From: Micromonospora sp. WMMD1155 | GTDB lineage: Bacteria; Actinomycetota; Actinomycetes; Mycobacteriales; Micromonosporaceae | Assembly (NCBI RefSeq): GCF_029581275.1 | Contig: NZ_CP120742.1 | Location: 5,952,501 to 6,016,500 of the forward strand | Direction: 5' to 3' | DNA: 64,000 bases | In this document: positions 18,078-28,837 of the stretch, piece by piece | How positions within the stretch are numbered: position 1 is the first letter of the stretch | Layout of the letters: each line of letters starts with the position of its first letter | Position numbers and translations under genes: made by a program | The notes under the pieces: model-generated | Told to the model about the DNA's origin: nothing | Seen by the model: only the letters and a program-made list of their open reading frames with translations | Database searches by the model: none

Positions 18078-21000
18078 CTAGGCGCGGGTCCTGCGCTGCC
18101 GGACGATCAGCAGCAGAGTGGCGCCGAGGAGCACCGCCAGCACGCCCGCGCCCATCCATCCGCCGATCGGGAACGAATCACCGGTCACCGGGAGCTTGCC
18201 CTTCACCGGAATGGTGATCGTGGACTCGGGTGAGACCGGTGCCGGGCCCTCCGGCGGGGTGCCGGTCGCCGTCGCGGTGTTGCGTACCGAACCGTGGTGG
18301 TAGTCGGCCTTGCTGACCGTGTACGTCGCCGTGCAGGTGACGGCGGCACCGGCGGCGAGGGTGACGGAGCCGTTCGGTGTCCGTTCCGGACCACAGGTGA
18401 TCGGGCCGAGGTCGGTCGCCGAGGCCGGCGCGGTCAGGGTGTCGGTGATCGTCACGCCGGTCAGCGTCACCTGCCCGGTGTTGGTGACCACGAACTGGAA
18501 GGGCACGTGCTGGCCCGGCCGGTGGATCCGGTCGGTGCTGCTCGACTTCACGACGGTGATGGCCGCACCGCGGGTGGCGGTGACCTCGGCGGTGGCGGGT
18601 GTGGAGCGTACCGGTGCGGGTGGCTCCTGTCCGGGAATGGTCGGCGGCGTACCGACGGCGACTGCCGTGTTGGTGATCCGACCGGCCTCGATGTCCGCCG
18701 CGGTGACCGCGTAGGTCGACGTGCAGGTGGTGCTCTCGCCGGCGGCCAGAGTGACAGTGCCGCAGGTGACCGCGCCGGGCGTGCCGGTGCCGGAGAACTC
18801 CGTCTCGTCGACGGTCACCGCGCTGAGCGGGGTGTTGCCGGTGTTGCGCACCACGAACTGGTACGTGACCACGTCACCGGCCGCCGACACCACGCTGGGC
18901 GTCACCGACTTGGTGATGGCGATCGCGGGGTGCGGGATCGGAATGTCGAACGGAGACGGTGGCGACACCGGCGGCGGTCCGAGCGGCGGTGTGCCGGTGG
19001 CCGTGGCGACGTTGCGCAACGCCGAGCCGGTGAAGTCCTCAGCCGTCACCGTGTACGTCGTCCGGCACTCGATGGAGGCACCCGGCGACAGGGTCACCTC
19101 CCCGTTCGGGATGTTCTGCGGACCGCAGGTGATCGGCCCGAGCACGCCGCGTTCGGACGGCGGCAGCACCGTGTCGTTGATTGTCACCCCGGTGAGCGTG
19201 AAGCCACCGCTGTTGACGACCAGGAACGTGTAGGGCACCTGCTGACCCGGTGCGGTGATCGCCACGGTGGTGGACGACTTGACCACCTCGATGGCCGCCA
19301 CGACCCCCGACTCCGGGATCGTCAGCGTCGACGGCGGCGAGTCGACCGGCGTACCTCCGCCCGGCGGTGTGCCGTGTGCGGTCGCCACGTCGGTGACCCC
19401 GTCGTTGTCGAGGTCGGCCTGGGTGACGGTGTAGGTGGCGGTGCAGGTGGTGCTCGCCCCAGGGGCGAGGGTGGTGACCGGGCAGGTGATCGGGCCGAGG
19501 TCGGCGTTGGACGAGGGGGGCGTCTGCACGTCGGTCACGTTCACGTCGGTGAGCGTGTACCCGCCGGTGTTCACCACCAGGAAGCGGTACGGGACCTGTT
19601 GCCCGACCATGTCGATCGCCACGGTCGTGGAGGTCTTCACGACCTGGATGCCGGCGACGATCCCTGCGTCCGGGATGGTCAGCGTCGCCGGGGCCGAGTC
19701 GATGGGTGTCTCACTGCCCGGTGGTGTGCCGTGGGCGGTGGCGACGTCGGTGACCCCGTCGTTGTCGAGGTCGGCCTGGGTGACGGTGTAGGTGGCGGTG
19801 CAGGTGGTGTTCGCGCCGGGGGTGAGCGTCGCGTCGGCGCAGGTGATCGGGCCGAGGTTGGTGTTGGACGACGGTGGTGTCTGCACGTCGGTGACGTTCA
19901 CCGAGGACAACGTCACGTTGCCGGTGTTCGCCACCAGGAACCGGTAGGGCACCTGTTGCCCGACGGTGCTGATCGAGACGGTGGTGGAGGACTTGACCAG
20001 TGAGATCGACGGCATCAGGTCGGCCGCCGGAATGACGAGCGTCGAGGGCGTCGAGTCGATCGGGTTGTCACCGCCAGCCGGTGTGCCGTGGGCGGTGGCG
20101 ACGTCGGCGACCTGGTCGTTGTCGAGGTCGGCCTGGGTGACGGTGTAGGTGGCGGTGCAGGTGGTGTTCGCGCCAGGGGCGAGGGTGGTGACCGGGCAGG
20201 TGATCGGGCCGAGGTTGGCGTTCGATGACGGGGGTGTCTGCACGTCGGTGACGTTCACCCCGTTGAGCGTCACGCCACCGGTGTTGGCCACCAGGAACCG
20301 GTACGGCACCTGCTGCCCGACCGTGGTGATCGCCGTGGTGGTCGAGGACTTCACCAGCGAGATGCCGGGGGTGACGACGTCGGCCGGGATGGTCAGGGTC
20401 GCCGGTGGTGACTGCACGGGCGTGCCACCGCCGGGTGGCGTGCCCTGCGCGGTCGCGCTGTCCCGGACCGAGCCGAAGTCCAGGTCGGCCTGGGTGACGG
20501 TGTACGTGGCGGTGCAGGTGGTGGTCGCGCCCGGCGCGAGGGTGGTGACCGGGCAGGTGATCGGGCCGAGGTCGGCGTTGGACGACGGTGGTGTCTGCAC
20601 GTCGGTGACGGTCACGCCGGTGAGGGTGAACCCGCCGGTGTTGACGACGTGGAACTCGTACGGGACCTGCTGCCCGACCGTGGTGATCGACGTGGTGGTG
20701 GACGTCTTCAGGATCGCGATGGAGGCGACCAGGCCGCTCTCCGGGATGGTCAGCGTCGCGGGCGTCGAGTCGACAGGTGTGCCGCCGGGTGGTGTGCCGT
20801 GTGCGGTGGCGACGTTGGTGACGCCGTCGTTGTCGAGGTCGGCCTGGGTGACGGTGTACGCGGCCGTGCAGAGCGTCTGCGCGCCGGGCGCGAGGATGGT
20901 CGCGGCGCAGGTGATCGGGCCGAGGTTGGCATTCGACGATGGCGGTGTCTGCACGTCGGTCACGTTCACGTTGGTCAGGGTGAACCCGCCGGTGTTCAAC

Positions 21001-22898
21001 ACGTGGAACTGGTACGGCACCTGTTGCCCGACCGTGGTGATCGAGGTGGTGGTCGAGGTCTTCATGATGGCGATCGCGGCGATCAGACCGGCCTCGGGGA
21101 TCGTCAGCGTCGAGGGTGAGGAGGTGACCGGAGTGCCGCCGCCGGGTGGGGTGCCCTGGGCGGTGGCGACGTTGGTGACCCCGTTGTTGTCGAGGTCGGC
21201 CTGGGTGACGGTGTAGGTGGCGGTGCAGGTGGTGCTGGCGCCGGGAGCGAGGGTGGTGACCGGGCAGGTGATCGGGCCGAGGTTGGCGTTCGACGACGGC
21301 GGTGTCTGCACGTCGGTGACGGTCACGTTGGTCAGGGTCAGTCCGCCGGTGTTGGCAACCAGGAACCGGTAGGGAACCTGCTGCCCGACCGAGGTGATGG
21401 ACGTGGTGGTGGAGGATTTCACCACCGTGACGGCGGCGGTGAGCTCTTCCGCCGGGATGGTCAGGGTATCCGGGTCGGAGACGACCGGCGGGCCGGTGGG
21501 TGGGGTGCCCCGGGCGGTGGCGACGTTGGTGACGCCGTCGTTGACGAGGTCGGCCTGGGTGACGGTGTAGGTGGCCGTGCACGCGGTGCTCGCGCCGGGC
21601 GCGAGGGTGGTGGCGGCGCAGGTGATCGGGCCGAGGTTGGCGTTGGACGACGGCGGCGTCTGCACGTCGGTGACGGAGATGTCGGTCAGGGGCACGCCGC
21701 CGGTGTTGACCACGTGGAACGAGTACGGCACCTGCTGGCCGACGCTGCTGATCAACGCGGTGGTCGACGACTTGACCACCGAGATGTCGGCGGGTGTGGC
21801 TCCTTCACAGGCGAGTGTGGTGCTGAACGGGAAGTAGTGGATCTCGCCGCCGCGGTGGTCCAGCGTACGGGTGATGACGCTGCCCTCGGTGTTGCTCGCC
21901 GAGAGGTCGGTGAGGCTGGCGTTGGGAGCGTAGATGGTGCCTTCGACGGTTGCGGCGTTCTCGGTGAGGGTGAGCGCGGTGGCGGTGGGGAAGTTGAACA
22001 GGACGTAGCGCGCCTGCGGCCCGCCGATCCCGGCGAAGTTCGGGGCGGTCCAGGCGAAGGTGTTGCCGACGCCGCTGGTGTCCACGTTGACCAGCAGCGG
22101 GGTGTCGGCGGTGGGCTGGTTGGCGAAGGTCAGGATCTGGATGTTGGCCAGGTCCGTGGCGCTCAGGTTGAGCACGTTCGTCACGCCCGGGGTCAGCGTG
22201 ATCACGGCGTTGCTGCCCGGCGGGATCGGTCGGGGCAGCACGTCACCGTTCGGCGTCCGGAGCACCACCGTGTTGTCACAGGTGGCCAGGCTGGCGGTGG
22301 TGTCGCGGAAGGTGGCGAAGGCGGCGCCGAAGTTGATCGGTGAGGTCGGCCCGACGCTGGCGACCGGCTGCCGGGTGACCAGTTCGACCCGGGGCGAGGC
22401 GTCGTAGTCGTTCGCGGGCAGGATCCGGGTGTTGACCTGGGCGCCGTTGTTGTCGGTGTCGCGGACGAAGGTACCGGTCAGGTTGTTGACCTTGGCGTAG
22501 CCGTTGGAGAGCACCTGGAGGCGGCTGCCGCCGACGCTGCCGGCGAAGTTCACCCGTCCACCCACCACCAGGGCGCTCGGGTTGGCGTCGCCGGGCACCA
22601 CGAACGATCCGGCGGTCGCCCCGGCCAGCTGGTAGTTGCCGAAGGTGAGGTCGCCGCCGACGGCGAGGGTGCCCTCGTTCTCGTCGTTGATCACCCGGGC
22701 GTCGCCCTCGGTCATCACGCCGAAGCTCAGGGCCGCGCCGACCGGGTCGACCGGCCCGACGGCCTCGTCGACCGCCGCCAGCACGGGGTTGAGCCGGGCG
22801 GGTCCCGGCACCAGCAGACCGTTGAGCGCCAGGACGCCACCGGCGGCGATCATCGCTGCCACCCGTGACCTGCGGCCACTCCACCAGGAAATTCTCAT
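18078..22898 (-). CDS. Sortase-anchored surface protein: choice-of-anchor A domain plus ten DUF11-type repeats
   Basis: About 1606 residues, exported and wall-linked. A basic N-terminus and hydrophobic signal (AAMIAAGGVLALNGLLVPG) lead into a choice-of-anchor A domain (about 55-365; LSFGVMTEGDARVINDENEG; VEGTIYAPNASLTDLSASN). Then come ten Ig-like DUF11-type repeats of about 115 residues, recognisable by VKSSTT, VGQQVPYRF, NTGG, VTDVQTPPSSNANLGPITC and CTATYTVTQADL. Each has a Cys pair. The C-terminus has LPVTG about 38 residues from the end, a hydrophobic helix and a basic tail, the class E/C-like sortase signal. The ATG at 22898 has GGGGG upstream; a GTG one codon earlier is possible. Probably an adhesin or stalk for cell-surface interactions. 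Confidence 0.88.
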   Translation of the reverse strand: MRISWWSGRRSRVAAMIAAGGVLALNGLLVPGPARLNPVLAAVDEAVGPVDPVGAALSFGVMTEGDARVINDENEGTLAVGGDLTFGNYQLAGATAGSFVVPGDANPSALVVGGRVNFAGSVGGSRLQVLSNGYAKVNNLTGTFVRDTDNNGAQVNTRILPANDYDASPRVELVTRQPVASVGPTSPINFGAAFATFRDTTASLATCDNTVVLRTPNGDVLPRPIPPGSNAVITLTPGVTNVLNLSATDLANIQILTFANQPTADTPLLVNVDTSGVGNTFAWTAPNFAGIGGPQARYVLFNFPTATALTLTENAATVEGTIYAPNASLTDLSASNTEGSVITRTLDHRGGEIHYFPFSTTLACEGATPADISVVKSSTTALISSVGQQVPYSFHVVNTGGVPLTDISVTDVQTPPSSNANLGPITCAATTLAPGASTACTATYTVTQADLVNDGVTNVATARGTPPTGPPVVSDPDTLTIPAEELTAAVTVVKSSTTTSITSVGQQVPYRFLVANTGGLTLTNVTVTDVQTPPSSNANLGPITCPVTTLAPGASTTCTATYTVTQADLDNNGVTNVATAQGTPPGGGTPVTSSPSTLTIPEAGLIAAIAIMKTSTTTSITTVGQQVPYQFHVLNTGGFTLTNVNVTDVQTPPSSNANLGPITCAATILAPGAQTLCTAAYTVTQADLDNDGVTNVATAHGTPPGGTPVDSTPATLTIPESGLVASIAILKTSTTTSITTVGQQVPYEFHVVNTGGFTLTGVTVTDVQTPPSSNADLGPITCPVTTLAPGATTTCTATYTVTQADLDFGSVRDSATAQGTPPGGGTPVQSPPATLTIPADVVTPGISLVKSSTTTAITTVGQQVPYRFLVANTGGVTLNGVNVTDVQTPPSSNANLGPITCPVTTLAPGANTTCTATYTVTQADLDNDQVADVATAHGTPAGGDNPIDSTPSTLVIPAADLMPSISLVKSSTTVSISTVGQQVPYRFLVANTGNVTLSSVNVTDVQTPPSSNTNLGPITCADATLTPGANTTCTATYTVTQADLDNDGVTDVATAHGTPPGSETPIDSAPATLTIPDAGIVAGIQVVKTSTTVAIDMVGQQVPYRFLVVNTGGYTLTDVNVTDVQTPPSSNADLGPITCPVTTLAPGASTTCTATYTVTQADLDNDGVTDVATAHGTPPGGGTPVDSPPSTLTIPESGVVAAIEVVKSSTTVAITAPGQQVPYTFLVVNSGGFTLTGVTINDTVLPPSERGVLGPITCGPQNIPNGEVTLSPGASIECRTTYTVTAEDFTGSALRNVATATGTPPLGPPPVSPPSPFDIPIPHPAIAITKSVTPSVVSAAGDVVTYQFVVRNTGNTPLSAVTVDETEFSGTGTPGAVTCGTVTLAAGESTTCTSTYAVTAADIEAGRITNTAVAVGTPPTIPGQEPPAPVRSTPATAEVTATRGAAITVVKSSSTDRIHRPGQHVPFQFVVTNTGQVTLTGVTITDTLTAPASATDLGPITCGPERTPNGSVTLAAGAAVTCTATYTVSKADYHHGSVRNTATATGTPPEGPAPVSPESTITIPVKGKLPVTGDSFPIGGWMGAGVLAVLLGATLLLIVRQRRTRA
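18200..21790. repeat. Ten tandem DUF11-type coding repeats
   Basis: Roughly 350-base units within the surface-protein gene. Units 1-8 are highly similar, sharing for example GACGGTGTAGGTGGCGGTGC and TCGGCCTGGGTGACGGTGTA at regular spacing; units 9 and 10 are diverged. Limits are approximate. Confidence 0.85.
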
Positions 22899-23090
22899 CA
22901 CGCCCCCGTTGGTTCTGATGTGCCAGGGGAGCGTATAGGGGAATAAGCAGGGCTATGACCATTTTGTCCGGATTGGAGATCACCGGAGTCGGCTTCGAAC
23001 CGTGCACACCGTAGCGCCGTGTTTATGATCGACGACCCCGACCGGGGCACGGAAGCCGGACCGTCGGGTCTGGCCGGAGCAGGAGACGAG

Positions 23091-24083
23091 GTGCGCGACG
23101 TGAGCAGCGAGGCGTACGCCTGCTGGGTGCGCGAGCCCGGTGCGGCCGAGATCCGTCCGGTGACGCTGCCCGCACCCGGGCCCGACGAGGTGCTGGTCCG
23201 AGCCCGCTACTCCGGCGTCAGCCGGGGCACCGAGACGCTCGTCTTCGCCGGCCGGGTGCCCCCCGACCAGTACGCCGCGATGCGCGCCCCCTTTCAGGAC
23301 GGTGACTTCCCCGGCCCGGTGAAGTACGGCTACCTCAGCGTCGGCGTGGTCGAGCAGGGCCCCGCGGACCTGCTCGGGCGGACGGTGTTCTGCCTGCACC
23401 CGCACCAGAGCGCGTACGTCGTGCCGGCCACCGCCGTGGTGCCCGTACCGGACGGGGTGCCTCCGGCCCGGGCGGTGCTCGCCGGCACCGTGGAGACCGC
23501 CGTCAACGCGCTGTGGGACGCCGCGCCGCTGCTCGGCGACCGGGTCACCGTCGTGGGCGCGGGCATGGTGGGCTGCTGTGTCGCCGCGCTGCTCGCCCGG
23601 TTCCCCGGCGTGCAGGTCGAGTTGGTCGACACCGACGCCCGGAGGGCCGGGGTGGCCGGCGCGCTCGGCGTCGAGTTCGCCCAACCGGCCGACGCGACCG
23701 GCGACCGGGACCTCGTCGTGCACGCCAGCGCCACCGGCGACGGACTGCAACTGTCGCTGGACCTGCTCGCGTCGGAGGGCACCGTCGTCGAGCTGAGCTG
23801 GTACGGCGACCGCCCGGTGCAGGTGTCGCTGGGTGGAGCGTTCCACTCCGGGCGGCTGACCGTGCGCAGCAGTCAGGTCGGCATGGTCGCGCCCGCCCGC
23901 CGGGGGCGGCGCAGCTACACCGACCGGCTGGCGCTCGCCCTGGACCTGCTCGACGACCCGGCCTTCGACGCCCTGATCACCGGCGCGTCCCGGTTCACGG
24001 AGCTGCCCGACGTGCTTGCCCGACTGAGCAGCGGCGACCTGCCCGCGCTCTGCCACCTCATCACCTACGACGACGGGGAGTGA
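23091..24083 (+). CDS. MDR-family (zinc-type) dehydrogenase without visible zinc ligands
   Basis: 330 residues from the GTG at 23091 (AGGAG five bases earlier); the open frame to 23019 is unneeded. The medium-chain dehydrogenase fold shows [41 protein letters not shown], and a nucleotide-binding [20 protein letters not shown]. The catalytic-zinc Cys/His pattern (C-x-x-D, GHE) and the structural four-Cys lobe are absent, as in BchC-like and other zinc-free members. First gene of a seven-gene cluster and only 2 bases before the PTPS-like gene. Likely oxidises or reduces an alcohol on a pathway intermediate with NAD(P); substrate unknown. Confidence 0.8.
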
Positions 24084-24085
24084 CA

Positions 24086-24484
24086 GTGTTCAGCGTGACC
24101 GTTCGGGATCACATCATGATCGCCCACAGTTTCCGGGGCGAGGTGTTCGGTCCGGCGCAACGTCTGCACGGGGCGACGTTCGTCGTGGACGCGACGTTCC
24201 GCCGGCCCGACCTGGACGCCGACGGGATCGTGGTCGACATCGGCCTGGCCACCGAGCAGTTGCGGGCGGTGCTGGCCGACCTGACCTACCGCAACCTGGA
24301 CGACGAGCCGGCCTTCGCCGGGGTGAACACCACCACCGAGGTGCTGGCCCGCACGATCGCGGACCGGCTGGCCGAGCGGGTGCACGCGGGCGACCTGGGC
24401 GCCGGGGCGCGGGACCTGACCGGCATCGCGGTCACCCTGCACGAGTCGCACATCGCCTGGGCCGGCTACGAGCGGTCGCTGTGA
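24086..24484 (+). CDS. 6-pyruvoyl-tetrahydropterin synthase / QueD-like protein, atypical active site
   Basis: 132 residues from a GTG with GGGGAG five bases upstream. The T-fold pattern is clear: [62 protein letters not shown] and [12 protein letters not shown]. Compared with E. coli QueD, zinc ligands His14 and His28 are kept but the third (HGH) is Ala30. The catalytic Cys four residues before the first HGH His is Ala24, and the LDH histidine is Asp (NLDD). The glutamate near the end is kept. Canonical carboxytetrahydropterin or pyruvoyl-pterin synthesis is therefore doubtful; it may bind or convert a related pterin or pyrimidine. Coupled to the glycosyltransferase by a GTGA overlap. Confidence 0.8.
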
Positions 24485-25563
24485 TCGATGCCGGGCGGGC
24501 GGCGCCCGCCGACGGGTCGGCCACGACCGGCCGCCCGGTGCACGTCGTCCTGCCCGGCGACATCGACGACCCGGCCACCCCGAGCGGTGGCAACACGTAC
24601 GACCGGCGGATCTGTTCCGGGCTCGGCGAGCACGGCTGGTCGGTGCGTGAGCACCCGGTGCCCGGTGCGTGGCCGGACCCCGACCCGGTCGACCGGGCGA
24701 GGCTGGCCGAGGTCCTCGCCGCCCTGCCCGACGACGCCGTGGTGCTGCTCGACGGCCTGATCGCCTCGACCGTGCCCGACCTCCTCGCCCCGCACGCCCG
24801 GCGGCTGCGTCTGGTCGTCCTCGTCCACCTGCCGTTCGACGACGAGGCCGAGGCCCGCGCGCTGGCGACCGCGCGGGCCGTCGTGACCACCAGCGAGTGG
24901 ACCCGCCGCCACCTGGTGGCCCGCCACCGGACCCTCGCCGACCGGGTCCGGGCCGCGCCGCCCGGGGTGCGACCGGCGCCGCCGGCACCCGGCTCGGCCG
25001 CCGGCGGACGGCTGCTCTGCGTCGCGGCGGTCACCCACCACAAGGGGTACGACGTACTCGTCGACGCGTTGTCCACGGTGGTCGGGCTGCCCTGGACGAT
25101 GGTGTGCGCGGGCACCCTGGACCGGGAGCCGGATCTCGTGCGACGGCTGCGCGAGCGGCTCACCGGCGCGGGTCTCACCGAGCGGGTGCGATTCGCGGGT
25201 CCGCTGACCGGTGCGGCGCTGGACGCCGCGTACGCCGAGGCCGACCTGCTGGTGCTGCCGTCCCGGGGCGAGACGTTCGGCATGGTCGTCACCGAGGCGC
25301 TGGCCCGTGGCCTGCCGGTGCTGACCACCGAGGTCGGTGGGCTCCCGGAGGCCCTCGGGTACGCGCCCGACGGGGACCGGCCGGGCCTGCTGGTCGCGCC
25401 GCACGACCCGGCCGCGCTGGCCGGGGCGCTGGTCCGTTGGCTGACCGACGACGCGTTGCGGGCCCGGTTGCGGCATGCCGCCCTGGCCCGCCGCGACACC
25501 CTGACCGACTGGCCGGTGACGACCGCGCTGCTGGCCGCCGCGCTGAAGGAGGTGGCGGGATGA
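24481..25563 (+). CDS. Glycosyltransferase family 4 (GT-B)
   Basis: 360 residues. N-terminal GT-B half: [20 protein letters not shown] with the glycine-rich acceptor loop, then [12 protein letters not shown] and [13 protein letters not shown]-terminal nucleotide-sugar half: [40 protein letters not shown], and the E-x7-E signature [19 protein letters not shown]. These are GT4 retaining-transferase hallmarks (UDP- or GDP-sugars). The GTG overlaps the PTPS-like stop and the stop overlaps the methyltransferase ATG, so three proteins are translationally chained. It suggests the cluster product, or its lipid carrier, is glycosylated. No signal peptide; cytoplasmic. Confidence 0.87.
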
Positions 25564-26378
25564 CCGTCGAGGAGACCCTGTCGTTCGCCGACTGGCTGCG
25601 GCTGCGCGAGCCGGCCGACGCGGCGGCGCGTGCCGAGGACCTGCTGGACGCCGTCCGCCCCCGGCTGGCCGGCGCGACCCCGACCGTCATCCACGACCTG
25701 GGAAGCGGCACCGGCTCGATGAGCCGGTGGGTGGCCGCGCGCCTACCCGGCCCGCAGCACTGGGTGCTGCACGACCGGGACGGGGATCTGCTGGCCCGGG
25801 TCGCCGAGGGCATGACCGGGGTGGTGGCGGCCGACGGCGCCCCGGTGACCGTCAGCACCCGCTGCGGTGACCTCACCCGGCTCGACGCCGCCGACCTGGC
25901 CGATGCCTCCCTGGTCACCGCGTCGGCGCTGCTGGACATGCTCACCGCCGAGGAGGTCGACCGGGTGGTGGCCGCCTGTGTCGGCCGCCCCACCATCTTC
26001 GCCGTCTCGGTGACCGGGCGGGTCCGGCTCACCCCGGCCGACCCGCTGGACGAGGTGGTCGAGGCCGCGTTCAACGAGCACCAGCGGCGCACCGTCGACG
26101 GTCGCCGACTGCTCGGGCCGGACGCGGTCGCCGCCACCGCCGCCGCGTTCGCCCGGCACGGTGTCGACGTACGGGAGCGGCCCAGCCCGTGGCGGCTCGG
26201 CCCGGAGCAGGCCGACCTCGCCGCCGAGTGGCTGCGGGGTTGGCTGGGCGCGGCGTGCGAGCAGCGCCCCGACCTGGCCGGTCCCGCCCGGGCGTACGCC
26301 CGTCGTCGGCTGGACGAGGCGGCGGCCGGACAGCTCACCGTGCTGGTCGAGCACAGTGACCTCCTCGCCGGTGGATGA
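25560..26378 (+). CDS. Class I SAM-dependent methyltransferase
   Basis: 272 residues. The SAM-binding motif I is TVIHDLGSGTGSMSRWVAAR (about 42-61), an acidic second strand is HWVLHDRDGDLL, and ASLVTASALLDMLTAEEVDR follows as motif II/post-II. The C-terminal helical part (HQRRTVDGRRLLGPDAVAAT; AEWLRGWLGAACEQRPDLAG) is not from a family I can name. The ATG overlaps the glycosyltransferase stop (ATGA). Probably methylates the small molecule made by this cluster; position of methylation unknown. Confidence 0.83.
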   Translation: MTVEETLSFADWLRLREPADAAARAEDLLDAVRPRLAGATPTVIHDLGSGTGSMSRWVAARLPGPQHWVLHDRDGDLLARVAEGMTGVVAADGAPVTVSTRCGDLTRLDAADLADASLVTASALLDMLTAEEVDRVVAACVGRPTIFAVSVTGRVRLTPADPLDEVVEAAFNEHQRRTVDGRRLLGPDAVAATAAAFARHGVDVRERPSPWRLGPEQADLAAEWLRGWLGAACEQRPDLAGPARAYARRRLDEAAAGQLTVLVEHSDLLAGG

Positions 26379-26444
26379 ACCGTTCACGCCCGGGGTACGT
26401 GGACTAGGGCAAGTGGACGATCTTCAAGGGGAGGGCCGACGCCG

Positions 26445-27383
26445 ATGTTCTGGGCCTGGGCACGAGTGGTCGGTGGGGTGGGTCTGCTCGCCGTCCTGTT
26501 GTGGCAGGTGGGCAGCGGCCCGTTCCTCGCCGGGGTGCGGCTGATCGACGCGCCCGCGTTGGGCGCGGCGCTGGCCATCGGGGTGCTCACCACGGTCTGC
26601 GCGGCCTGGCGGTGGAGCCTGGTCGCCGGCGGCCTCGGCGTACGGCTGCCGCTGGCGACCGCGGTGGCGCACTGCTACCGGGCGGTGTTCCTCAACGCCA
26701 CCCTGCCGGGCGGGATGCTCGGCGACGTGCACCGGGCGGTCCGCCACGGCCGTGACGCCGGTGACGTGAGCCGGGGCATCCGCGCGGTGGTCTGGGAACG
26801 TACCGCCGGGCAGGTGGTCCTGGTCGGCGTCGCGCTGGTGGTGCTCGCGGCCTTCCCGTCGCCGGTGCGCCCGTACCTGCCGCTCGCCGCCGCGTTGCTT
26901 CTCGGAGGCGGGCTGGTCGCCGTGCTGGTGGCCCGGGCCGTGCCGAACGCCGGCCCCTCCCGCTGGGCGCGGGCGCTGCGCACCGCCGTCGCGGACGTAC
27001 GCTCCGGCCTGCTGGCCCGGCGCACCTGGCTCGGCGTGCTGATCGCCTCCGCGGTGATGGTCGCCGGTCACCTGGCCACCTTCCTGGTGGCGGCACGGAC
27101 CGCCGGGTCGGACGCCCCACTGTCGCGGTTGCTGCCGTTGACGCTGCTGGCCCTGCTCGCCATGGGCCTGCCGCTGAACGTCGCCGGCTTCGGGCCACGC
27201 GAGGGGGTGGCGGCGTGGGTGTTCGGCGCGGCCGGGCTCAGCGCGGCCGAGGGTGTCGCGACCGCCACTGTCTACGGAGCACTCGTGTTGGTCGCCAGCC
27301 TGCCCGGAGCCGCCGTGCTGCTCGCCTGGAAGACCCGGACCCCGGCCCCCGCCCGGGAAGCCGCCTCCGTCGGCGGGTGTTGA
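26445..27383 (+). CDS. Lysylphosphatidylglycerol synthase transmembrane-region-like (UPF0104) membrane protein
   Basis: 312 residues with about eight membrane helices. It carries the conserved UPF0104/AglD-MprF flippase-domain features RWSLVAGGLGVRLPL, FLNATLPGGMLGDVHRAVRH, AVVWERTAGQ and PLNVAGFGPREGVAAWVFG. There is no soluble lysyl-transferase domain, so only the transport-like module is present. The ATG at 26445 is preceded by AAGGGGAGG and lies 66 bases after the methyltransferase, so it could have its own ribosome loading on the same transcript. Suggests the glycosylated product or intermediate is moved across or embedded in the membrane; this is inference. Confidence 0.82.
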   Translation: MFWAWARVVGGVGLLAVLLWQVGSGPFLAGVRLIDAPALGAALAIGVLTTVCAAWRWSLVAGGLGVRLPLATAVAHCYRAVFLNATLPGGMLGDVHRAVRHGRDAGDVSRGIRAVVWERTAGQVVLVGVALVVLAAFPSPVRPYLPLAAALLLGGGLVAVLVARAVPNAGPSRWARALRTAVADVRSGLLARRTWLGVLIASAVMVAGHLATFLVAARTAGSDAPLSRLLPLTLLALLAMGLPLNVAGFGPREGVAAWVFGAAGLSAAEGVATATVYGALVLVASLPGAAVLLAWKTRTPAPAREAASVGGC

Positions 27384-27440
27384 GTGGGTGGTGAGACGTA
27401 CGCGTCGCCGTGTGTCGGTGACGCCGGACAGAGGAGTCCC

Positions 27441-28124
27441 ATGCCCGAAGCATTGCCGGTCGCCACGATCCGTACGCAGGTCACGGTGCCGTTGACGTTC
27501 CCCGACGGCTACGCCACGACCGTCCGGGTGTTCACGTTCAAGGGCCTGGTGGACGGTCGGGAGCACCTGGCCTTCGGCCTGGGCGACTGGGCGGGCGCAC
27601 TGGACCGGCTCGCCGCCGGGGGAGACCCCCCGCTGGTCCGCCCGCACAGTGAGTGCCTGACCGGCGACGTGTTCGGCAGCCAACGCTGCGACTGTGGGCC
27701 GCAGTTGCACGAGGCGGTGCAGCGCATCGCGGAGACCGGCGGTTTCCTGCTCTACCTGCGGCAGGAGGGTCGGGGCATCGGCCTGTACGCCAAACTCGAC
27801 GCGTACGCGTTGCAGGACGCCGGTCTCGACACCTACCAGGCCAACGTCGCGCTGGGGCGCGGTGAGGACGAGCGGGACTACACGGCCGCCGCGCAGATGC
27901 TGGCCACGCTGGGCGTGCCGCGGATCCGACTGCTCAGCAGCAATCCCGACAAGGCCGAGCAGTTGACGCGATTGGGCGTGGACGTCGCCGAACGGGTGCC
28001 CACCAGCGTGTTCCTCTCCCCGGCCAATGCCGGCTACCTGGCCGCGAAGGCGGCCAAGGCGGCGGAGACCGAGGCGGCGGAAGCGCGGACGACTCGCACC
28101 GCCGACCGGCCCGTCTCCCGATGA
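27441..28124 (+). CDS. GTP cyclohydrolase II (RibA type, single domain)
   Basis: 227 residues; converts GTP to 2,5-diamino-6-ribosylamino-pyrimidinone 5'-phosphate, formate and pyrophosphate. Zinc ligands Cys72, Cys83 and Cys85 lie in HSECLTGDVFGSQRCDCG, followed by YLRQEGRGIGLYAKLDAYAL and EDERDY. The tyrosine equivalent to E. coli RibA Tyr105 (Tyr122, in LDAYALQ) is present, consistent with the full RibA reaction. LLSSNPDK replaces the usual LLTNNP-K. The Ala/Glu-rich C-terminal tail is unusual. No RibB half. The ATG at 27441 has GAGGAG upstream. It is not in a riboflavin operon, so it is probably a dedicated paralogue feeding this cluster; stop and next ATG overlap (ATGA). Confidence 0.9.
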   Translation: MPEALPVATIRTQVTVPLTFPDGYATTVRVFTFKGLVDGREHLAFGLGDWAGALDRLAAGGDPPLVRPHSECLTGDVFGSQRCDCGPQLHEAVQRIAETGGFLLYLRQEGRGIGLYAKLDAYALQDAGLDTYQANVALGRGEDERDYTAAAQMLATLGVPRIRLLSSNPDKAEQLTRLGVDVAERVPTSVFLSPANAGYLAAKAAKAAETEAAEARTTRTADRPVSR

Positions 28125-28837
28125 ACGGCCGGTCGGAGTCCACGCGGCCGTACGTGCTGCTCAGTTGCGCCGCGTCGATCGACGGGTACATCGACGACGC
28201 CTCCGACCAACGGCTGTTGCTCTCCAACGAGGACGACCTGGACCGGGTCGACGCGGTCCGGGCCAGCTGCGACGCGATCCTGGTCGGCGCCGGCACGGTC
28301 CGCCGCGACGACCCTCGGCTGCTGGTGCGCTCGACGGACCGGCGCGCCGAACGGGTGGCGGACGGCCGACCCGCGTCGCCCGCCAAGGTCACGGTGACCG
28401 CCCAGGGTGACCTGGACCCGACCGCCCGCTTCTTCACCGCCGGTGAGTCGGCCCGACTCGTCTACTGCGCCACGGGCGCGTTGGAGAAGGCCCGGGAGCG
28501 CCTCGGCCGCCTGGCCACCGTGATCGACGCGGGAGACCCGGTCGACCCCGGGTGGATGCTGACCGACCTGGCCGCACGGGGCGTACGGCGGCTGATGGTG
28601 GAGGGCGGCGGGACGGTGCACGCCCAGTTCCTCGCCGCCGGTCTCGCCGACGAACTGCACCTGGTGGTCGCCCCGTTCTTCGTCGGCGACGGGCGGGCGC
28701 CCCGGTTCGTCGGCGACGGTCGTTTCCCCTGGCACCCCGGCCGTCGTGCCCGGCTCGCCGAAGCCCGTCAGATCGGCGACGTGGTCCTGCTCCGCTACGC
28801 CCTCTCCGACCGCTGCCCCGCCGACGACGCCACCTGA
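28121..28837 (+). CDS. RibD C-terminal (DHFR-like) pyrimidine reductase
   Basis: 238 residues: YVLLSCAASIDGYIDDASDQ, the DAILVGAGTVRRDDPRL cofactor/substrate loop, and VRRLMVEGGGTVHAQFLAAG, all standard for the RibD-C / dihydrofolate-reductase-like fold using NADPH. No deaminase domain is present. Directly coupled to the GTP cyclohydrolase II gene (ATGA), so it very likely reduces the ribosyl-pyrimidine product of that enzyme, or a later intermediate, to the ribityl form. Last gene of the seven-gene run; no clear terminator follows. Confidence 0.88.
   Translation: MNGRSESTRPYVLLSCAASIDGYIDDASDQRLLLSNEDDLDRVDAVRASCDAILVGAGTVRRDDPRLLVRSTDRRAERVADGRPASPAKVTVTAQGDLDPTARFFTAGESARLVYCATGALEKARERLGRLATVIDAGDPVDPGWMLTDLAARGVRRLMVEGGGTVHAQFLAAGLADELHLVVAPFFVGDGRAPRFVGDGRFPWHPGRRARLAEARQIGDVVLLRYALSDRCPADDAT

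Follow-up and report, generated by a model that had tools for sequence, protein, structure and literature searches.

In the early steps of the riboflavin pathway, carried out by RibA and by RibD or an archaeal Rib7-type reductase, GTP is converted to a diaminopyrimidinone nucleotide, which is then reduced. The toxoflavin cluster contains GTP cyclohydrolase II (GCH II), a RibD-like protein and a methyltransferase, and the tetrahydrobiopterin glucoside of cyanobacteria is a glycosylated pterin. Streptomyces coelicolor has a GCH II, SCO6655, which Spoonamore et al. reportedly found in 2006 to stop at the formyl compound. That 2006 study is cited in PMC3509567. Here we analyzed a 64,000-nt stretch (the window) of the 7.34 Mb, single-contig genome of Micromonospora sp. 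WMMD1155, in which seven genes encode an MDR-like dehydrogenase/reductase, a PTPS-like protein, a GT4-family glycosyltransferase, a methyltransferase, a UPF0104 membrane protein, a GCH II and a RibD_C reductase. The genes form one co-inherited system, which is well supported by comparison with other genomes. Judging from the protein families, we tentatively propose that this cluster serves a pathway of its own, in which GTP is turned into a pterin- or pyrimidine-type metabolite that carries a sugar and often a methyl group. To our knowledge, neither the toxoflavin nor the tetrahydrobiopterin glucoside system combines an MDR, a PTPS-like protein lacking the catalytic triad, a GT4, a UPF0104 protein and a CDP-alcohol phosphatidyltransferase, and we found no described pathway or product for the cluster in the open-licence literature.

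The grouping of the seven genes exceeds chance, since all 80 loci compared retain at least some of the shared neighbours of the PTPS-like gene. These loci are the best 80 of at least 461 PTPS-like relatives (595 stretches scanned) and span Micromonospora, Streptomyces, Pseudonocardia, Amycolatopsis, Actinomadura, Actinoplanes, Phytohabitans, Marmoricola and others; neighbours were counted within 7 kb of the PTPS-like gene, and some loci are incomplete. We observed MDR in 79 loci, GT4 in 78, methyltransferase in 78, UPF0104 in 76, GCH II in 70 and RibD_C in 42, along with a CDP-alcohol phosphatidyltransferase in 73, a creatininase-family gene in 39 and an inositol-monophosphatase-like gene in 7. 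The counts rest on a 255-residue RibD_C query; minus-strand matches obtained with the query from locus L042 proved to be the antisense of UPF0104 and were rejected. In a second set of 25 loci, MDR was found in 25, GT4 in 24, the CDP-alcohol enzyme and UPF0104 in 23 each, and creatininase in 11. The relatives of the window's GCH II and PTPS-like protein also place it in Micromonospora. By genome, the PTPS-like gene is present in 30 of the 101 genomes of the order, and 95 of the 396 genomes of the phylum have a PTPS-like match, ten of these at 56% identity or more. An inositol-monophosphatase-family gene near the GCH II or creatininase gene (L053, L058, L065-L067, L076, L082, L137-L139, L144 and L146) is a candidate pathway phosphatase.

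An earlier note, made from the letters of this DNA, had proposed a GTP-derived pathway cluster and staked it on the genes staying together in other genomes; they do so across the 80 loci and in further families. Its view of a GTP-derived cluster separate from riboflavin synthesis stands, but it had overlooked an eighth gene, the variant with a creatininase, the absence of the PTPS catalytic residues, and earlier studies of the orthologues SCO6650 (structure 3d7j) and SCO6655 (enzymology). The seven open reading frames lie head to tail between 23091 and 28837 (Table 1), and the families first assigned to them were confirmed, with caveats for MDR and the methyltransferase. Three pairs overlap by 4 bases (PTPS/GT4, GT4/methyltransferase and GCH II/RibD_C), where the note had counted four; gaps of 2, 66 and 57 bases separate MDR from PTPS, the methyltransferase from UPF0104, and UPF0104 from GCH II, respectively. 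MDR might instead start at GTG 23019 or 23100. No TTA (bldA) codon was found in the seven genes.

Table 1. The seven cluster genes of the window, with the matches on which each assignment is based
Gene product	Position	Strand	Basis
MDR-like dehydrogenase/reductase	23091..24083	+	NCBIfam weak matches and predicted fold
PTPS-like T-fold protein, SCO6650 type	24086..24484	+	Pfam PTPS, 81 bits
GT4-family glycosyltransferase	24481..25563	+	Pfam Glyco_trans_1_4, 102.7 bits; Glycos_transf_1, 97 bits
S-adenosylmethionine (SAM)-dependent class I methyltransferase	25560..26378	+	Pfam Methyltransf_25, 25.8 bits
UPF0104 / LPG_synthase_TM membrane protein (flippase-like)	26445..27383	+	Pfam PF03706, 96.8 bits
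GTP cyclohydrolase II (GCH II)	27441..28124	+	Pfam PF00925, 189 bits
RibD_C reductase, no deaminase domain	28121..28837	+	Pfam RibD_C, 154.8 bits

The eighth gene encodes the CDP-alcohol phosphatidyltransferase (PF01066) and lies divergently next to MDR in most loci. The window gave no match to it; the copy of this genome is located about 161 kb away (C1:5813781-5814464) and is 63% identical to the copy in a Micromonospora cluster. Among the 101 genomes of the order, the enzyme (E 1e-20) occurs in 29 of the 30 that carry the PTPS-like gene, against 3 of the 71 that lack it (Fisher p 8e-21, a statistic that ignores kinship). In three genomes (G000, G047 and G091) it is encoded on the same contig as the PTPS-like gene but far from it, so the association goes beyond mere neighbourhood. 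Upstream of MDR, at the place which the CDP-alcohol gene occupies in relatives, the window carries a 1607-aa surface-type protein (18078-22901, minus strand) with many near-identical repeats, which we take to be DUF11-like, and a sortase-type C-terminus (LPVTG plus a hydrophobic tail).

Reduced and fused versions of the cluster occur in other lineages. In family f32 of the same phylum, RibD_C, MDR, PTPS and GT4 adjoin in this order in 7 of 7 loci at 28-42% identity, and an eighth locus, L164, has the same order. One f32 locus (L116) belongs to Rubrobacter indicoceani, with a near relative in R. radiotolerans. GT4-methyltransferase fusions were found in this family at L113:6397-8322 (642 aa, by Pfam) and L116:9016-10938 (641 aa, by sequence). 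Next to the Rubrobacter clusters (L111, L115, L164 and kin), and divergent from them, are genes for a PlsC-like acyltransferase and FolB. Elsewhere, a single open frame beside MDR-PTPS holds both GCH II and RibD_C. This is so in L136, from the taxonomic order to which the window belongs, and, with GT4-type matches, in 8 of 9 additional loci (families f23, f29 and f34), the ninth (L171) having MDR alone. Pfam was run on L136 only among these, and a precomputed table gives both domains for L166. The fused GCH II has Tyr at the catalytic position in 6 of 8, the motif pattern being unmatched in L165 and L173, and no creatininase match was found in the nine f23/f29/f34 loci. Both domains are present in 119 of the 120 fusion relatives listed (P0121-P0240), including an Acidimicrobiia protein. 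The fusion family is large, with 2277 matches at E 1e-60 among 8000 candidates scored, and eight members were read beside MDR-PTPS (L165-L170, L172 and L173). An MDR profile (E 1e-40) matched 42 of the 396 genomes, 37 of which have a PTPS-like match beside MDR by comparison of lists; for four of the other five, a PTPS-like gene lies beside MDR in L170, L172 and L173 and not in L171. Six weak PTPS matches (L118-L123, of 20 loci) have no adjoining MDR or GT4. The set common to these versions is RibD_C, MDR and the PTPS-like gene, plus GCH II except in f32.

We then compared the GCH II proteins. The window protein scores far above the family cut-off (23.3 bits) and contains CLTGD...RCDCG and RQEGRGIGLYAKLDAYALQD, which we take to be the zinc cysteine set and the RxEGRGIGL/Tyr motif. 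Aligned to the GCH II 2bz0, it retains the zinc cysteines and the catalytic Tyr (Tyr122), which predicts formate release to the diaminopyrimidinone. The catalytic position, presumably equivalent to Tyr105 of Escherichia coli, was scored in 87 cluster GCH II, leaving out the outgroup rows L118 and L121 (GCH II 5.3 kb away, with neither MDR nor GT4) and L135 (no residue obtained). Met stands there in 41 and His in 7, and all 48 of these loci have a creatininase-family gene; Tyr stands there in 39, and all 39 of these loci are without one. The window gave no creatininase match. A statistical claim of co-switching was reduced to this description, as the trees gave one and two independent events.

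In Sinorhizobium meliloti, the creatininase-annotated BrbF deformylates a FAPy-type intermediate (PMC9478397). This is the formylated intermediate at which SCO6655 reportedly stops; by analogy, creatininase probably supplies the deformylation missing in Met/His-type clusters. We predict that Tyr-type GCH II does both steps and that Met/His-type clusters split them, reaching the same diaminopyrimidinone. Both BrbF and archaeal ArfA-ArfB provide a precedent for separate formyl removal by a creatininase-annotated protein, but theirs serves riboflavin, whereas the creatininase here accompanies the cluster GCH II and has no copy in the window. Many Streptomyces loci have the order PTPS-GT4-methyltransferase-UPF0104-creatininase-GCH II, which fits the locus numbers SCO6650-SCO6655 (by number only). 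The GCH II proteins read from Streptomyces clusters have Met for Tyr, unlike the window, which has Tyr and RibD_C and lacks creatininase.

In the window RibD_C protein, RibD_C (cut-off 24.1 bits) was the sole domain found, with no deaminase. Its best NCBIfam match is rib_reduct_arch (132.8 bits, below the equivalog cut-off of 186.45), and its best PDB chains are 5xux and kin, then 6p8c; at most, it may work like an archaeal diaminopyrimidinone reductase (Rib7-like), whose reaction precedes deamination. A GCH II paired with an archaeal-type RibD_C that lacks a deaminase is compatible with formation of a ribityl-diaminopyrimidinone phosphate. As in riboflavin synthesis, GTP would be turned into a diaminopyrimidinone nucleotide and then reduced, but Pfam and NCBIfam found no RibB, deaminase, RibE or RibH among the seven proteins. 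In the window genome, a GCH II domain lies in a 696-residue RibBA-like frame (C1:254187), a RibD_C domain in a 367-residue RibD-like frame (C1:256670) and GTP cyclohydrolase I at C1:3092287. Riboflavin and folate thus seem to be provided for by other loci. With RibBA and RibD at other loci and no match in the window to the deaminase of the Streptomyces RibD_C-deaminase fusion, we rejected a riboflavin operon, in agreement with the earlier note.

RibD_C accompanies 33 of 34 Tyr-type GCH II and 7 of 37 Met/His-type. Genomes checked that have no RibD_C at the locus (6 Streptomyces-like, 5 of family f15) all carry one elsewhere that is 55-62% identical to that of the window, and in all 11 it adjoins a deaminase domain (Pfam run on L149 and L156). 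The distant RibD_C may act in trans in those genomes, or the pathway may differ there. In all 11 of these loci (L149-L159) the two domains of RibD are reversed, the reductase preceding the deaminase; L149, L151 and L152 have a neighbouring GCH II, which is Tyr-type in L149. One Streptomyces-like genome (L161:8216-9148 and the next gene) carries a second paralogue of GTP cyclohydrolase I that adjoins another RibD_C gene, about 30-34% like that of the window.

The PTPS-like protein matches PDB 3d7j (SCO6650) over its full length with 219 bits, and TIGR03367 with 37 bits against a cut-off of 89. It shares the T-fold family, the Pfam PTPS match and the pterin-anchoring Glu with PTPS and QueD (6-carboxytetrahydropterin synthase), but differs from them in its catalytic residues. 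Compared with QueD-type chains, with triad positions that we assumed and read off the alignment to 2oba, it has Ala, Thr/Asn/His and Tyr at the Cys-Asp-His positions. The triad Cys and Asp-His are replaced in both the actinomycete and the Rubrobacter proteins. The zinc motif HGH is HGA in the window and six other actinomycete rows, one zinc His thus being replaced, while the Rubrobacter row retains HGH. In five PTPS-like proteins from other families, Cys is absent at the triad position and HxH is retained. Glu120, which we take to be the pterin-anchoring Glu, is invariant in 8 of 8 aligned rows. Given the lost triad and the invariant Glu120, a 2-amino-4-oxopyrimidine ligand is plausible, and PTPS chemistry is not.

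Among the remaining proteins, MDR gave no ADH Pfam match at E 0.001, neither ADH_N nor a zinc-binding domain, and its best NCBIfam match is BchC (53.5 bits, cut-off 291). It reads SGVSRGTE at what we take to be the Cys position of the zinc MDR motif, and the catalytic Cys is therefore absent. Its predicted fold is nevertheless that of an MDR, with xylitol, L-idonate and sorbitol dehydrogenases among the nearest, and we proposed it as an oxidoreductase acting on the ribityl side chain. The methyltransferase falls slightly under the Methyltransf_25 cut-off of 27 bits; its AlphaFold model has a pLDDT of 92, and a fold search gave generic methyltransferase matches only. The UPF0104 protein clears the PF03706 cut-off (33.4 bits), and reaches 21.4 bits against NCBIfam TIGR00374, under the cut-off of 43.2.

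We assembled these predictions into a putative pathway. GCH II would open GTP to 2,5-diamino-6-ribosylamino-4(3H)-pyrimidinone 5'-phosphate, and RibD_C would reduce the ribosyl to a ribityl chain (C1' to CH2); these two steps are well supported as family-based predictions. MDR may then oxidize a secondary hydroxyl of the ribityl chain, most likely 2'-OH, which would yield a 1-deoxy-ribulosylamino compound, the ring-closing intermediate of GTP cyclohydrolase I. Together, the RibD_C and MDR steps would amount to the Amadori rearrangement performed by that enzyme. T-fold PTPS-type proteins are related in fold to GTP cyclohydrolase I, and the PTPS-like protein might bind the keto intermediate and help its 5-amino group to close the ring, giving a 7,8-dihydropterin (dihydroneopterin) phosphate. 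A phosphatase, for which family members lie near some clusters, GT4 and, where present, the methyltransferase would tailor the dihydropterin. UPF0104 and the CDP-alcohol phosphatidyltransferase, here at its distant locus, suggest a membrane fate and could anchor or move the product there. We infer the MDR step and its position, the ring closure, the order of tailoring and the membrane step. Overall, the conserved biosynthetic system is real and its supply chemistry fairly clear. The fullest form of this proposal, namely a GTP cyclohydrolase I-independent dihydropterin route by which diverse actinobacteria make a glycosylated, methylated pterin that is placed in or across the membrane and, in Streptomyces, switched on in the second (aerial/sporulating) mycelium, we regard as doubtful.

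Several observations weigh against the proposed pathway. GTP cyclohydrolase I is present in the genome, so a second dihydropterin route needs a reason. No GCH II was seen in 10 of the 80 loci (some through an incomplete locus), the second set of 25 loci has GCH II in 16, RibD_C in 12 and the methyltransferase in only 14, which makes the latter optional, and Amycolatopsis L056 and L061 retain only the CDP-alcohol enzyme, MDR, PTPS-like and methyltransferase genes. The locus is without RibD_C in 30 of 37 Met/His-type clusters, and the distant RibD_C-deaminase could belong to riboflavin and be unneeded by those clusters. The Tyr/creatininase pattern comes down to a single split in the GCH II tree and to two independent concordant pairs in the core-gene tree (p 0.5), and therefore does not count as statistically independent evidence. 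The fold ranking of MDR almost ties polyol-type with general alcohol dehydrogenases, and the Rubrobacter methyltransferase gave no match to that of the window. FolB beside the Rubrobacter clusters was rejected as support for pterin chemistry, as it is single-copy in 7 of 8 genomes and probably just the folate gene.

The same supply may also end differently. If the ring is never closed, the product would be a glycosylated, methylated ribitylaminopyrimidine, or a ring condensed with another carbon unit, and the PTPS-like protein would bind the unclosed pyrimidine for some other reaction of its side chain. Such a pyrimidine is precisely what GCH II and RibD_C predict, Glu120 would bind a 2-amino-4-oxopyrimidine of any kind, the fold comparison leaves the MDR substrate unfixed, and the PTPS triad is lost, as is a zinc ligand in actinomycetes. 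We consider this outcome rather unlikely, in that open 5,6-diaminopyrimidines are reactive and seldom end products, and a T-fold protein of the pterin-enzyme family is retained in every lineage examined. Alternatively, the PTPS-like protein, MDR, GT4 and methyltransferase could act on a pterin from GTP cyclohydrolase I, with RibD_C as a dihydrofolate reductase-like pterin reductase and GCH II as a side supply, giving a tetrahydropterin glycoside of the kind that occurs in cyanobacteria. All 8 genomes searched have GTP cyclohydrolase I, the PDB chains matched by RibD_C include dihydrofolate reductase (1cz3) and Rv2671 (4xrb), presumably dihydrofolate reductase-like, FolB adjoins the Rubrobacter clusters, and the zinc motif persists in the Rubrobacter and other-family PTPS-like proteins. 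Yet one Streptomyces-type GTP cyclohydrolase I query found no match in the 80 loci at E 1e-5, and GCH II is in 70 of them and fused to RibD_C in 9 others; with FolB discounted as above, we judge this explanation improbable.

Lastly, GCH II and RibD_C could be a backup riboflavin supply beside an unrelated glycolipid operon. The second locus of Streptomyces-like genomes holds a RibD_C-deaminase fusion whose RibD_C is 55-59% like that of the window, and in the three loci read the fusion lies beside a Tyr-type GCH II, an arrangement that looks riboflavin-related. However, the deaminase of that fusion matched nothing in the window or in any of the 80 loci, the later riboflavin genes are missing from the seven and RibBA and RibD lie elsewhere, and the MDR-PTPS-GT4 association is seen again in several families, where the genes are rearranged or fused, which leaves a backup supply very improbable.

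Returning to the proposed GTP-derived pathway, we looked at expression in Streptomyces. By locus order, third from SCO6650, SCO6652 is probably the methyltransferase. Its log2 ratio of second to first mycelium is 0.8 at 24 h, 4.3 at 48 h and 4.1 at 72 h (Table 3 in PMC3610822), the latter two corresponding to about 20- and 17-fold, hinting at a developmental role. If the proposal is true, many actinobacteria, Streptomyces and Micromonospora included, would make an unrecognized GTP-derived glycoconjugate. This would explain why S. coelicolor retains SCO6655, an odd GCH II, and SCO6650, a PTPS homologue in which the catalytic residues of PTPS are missing, and would offer metabolomics a target tied, through SCO6652 expression, to development.

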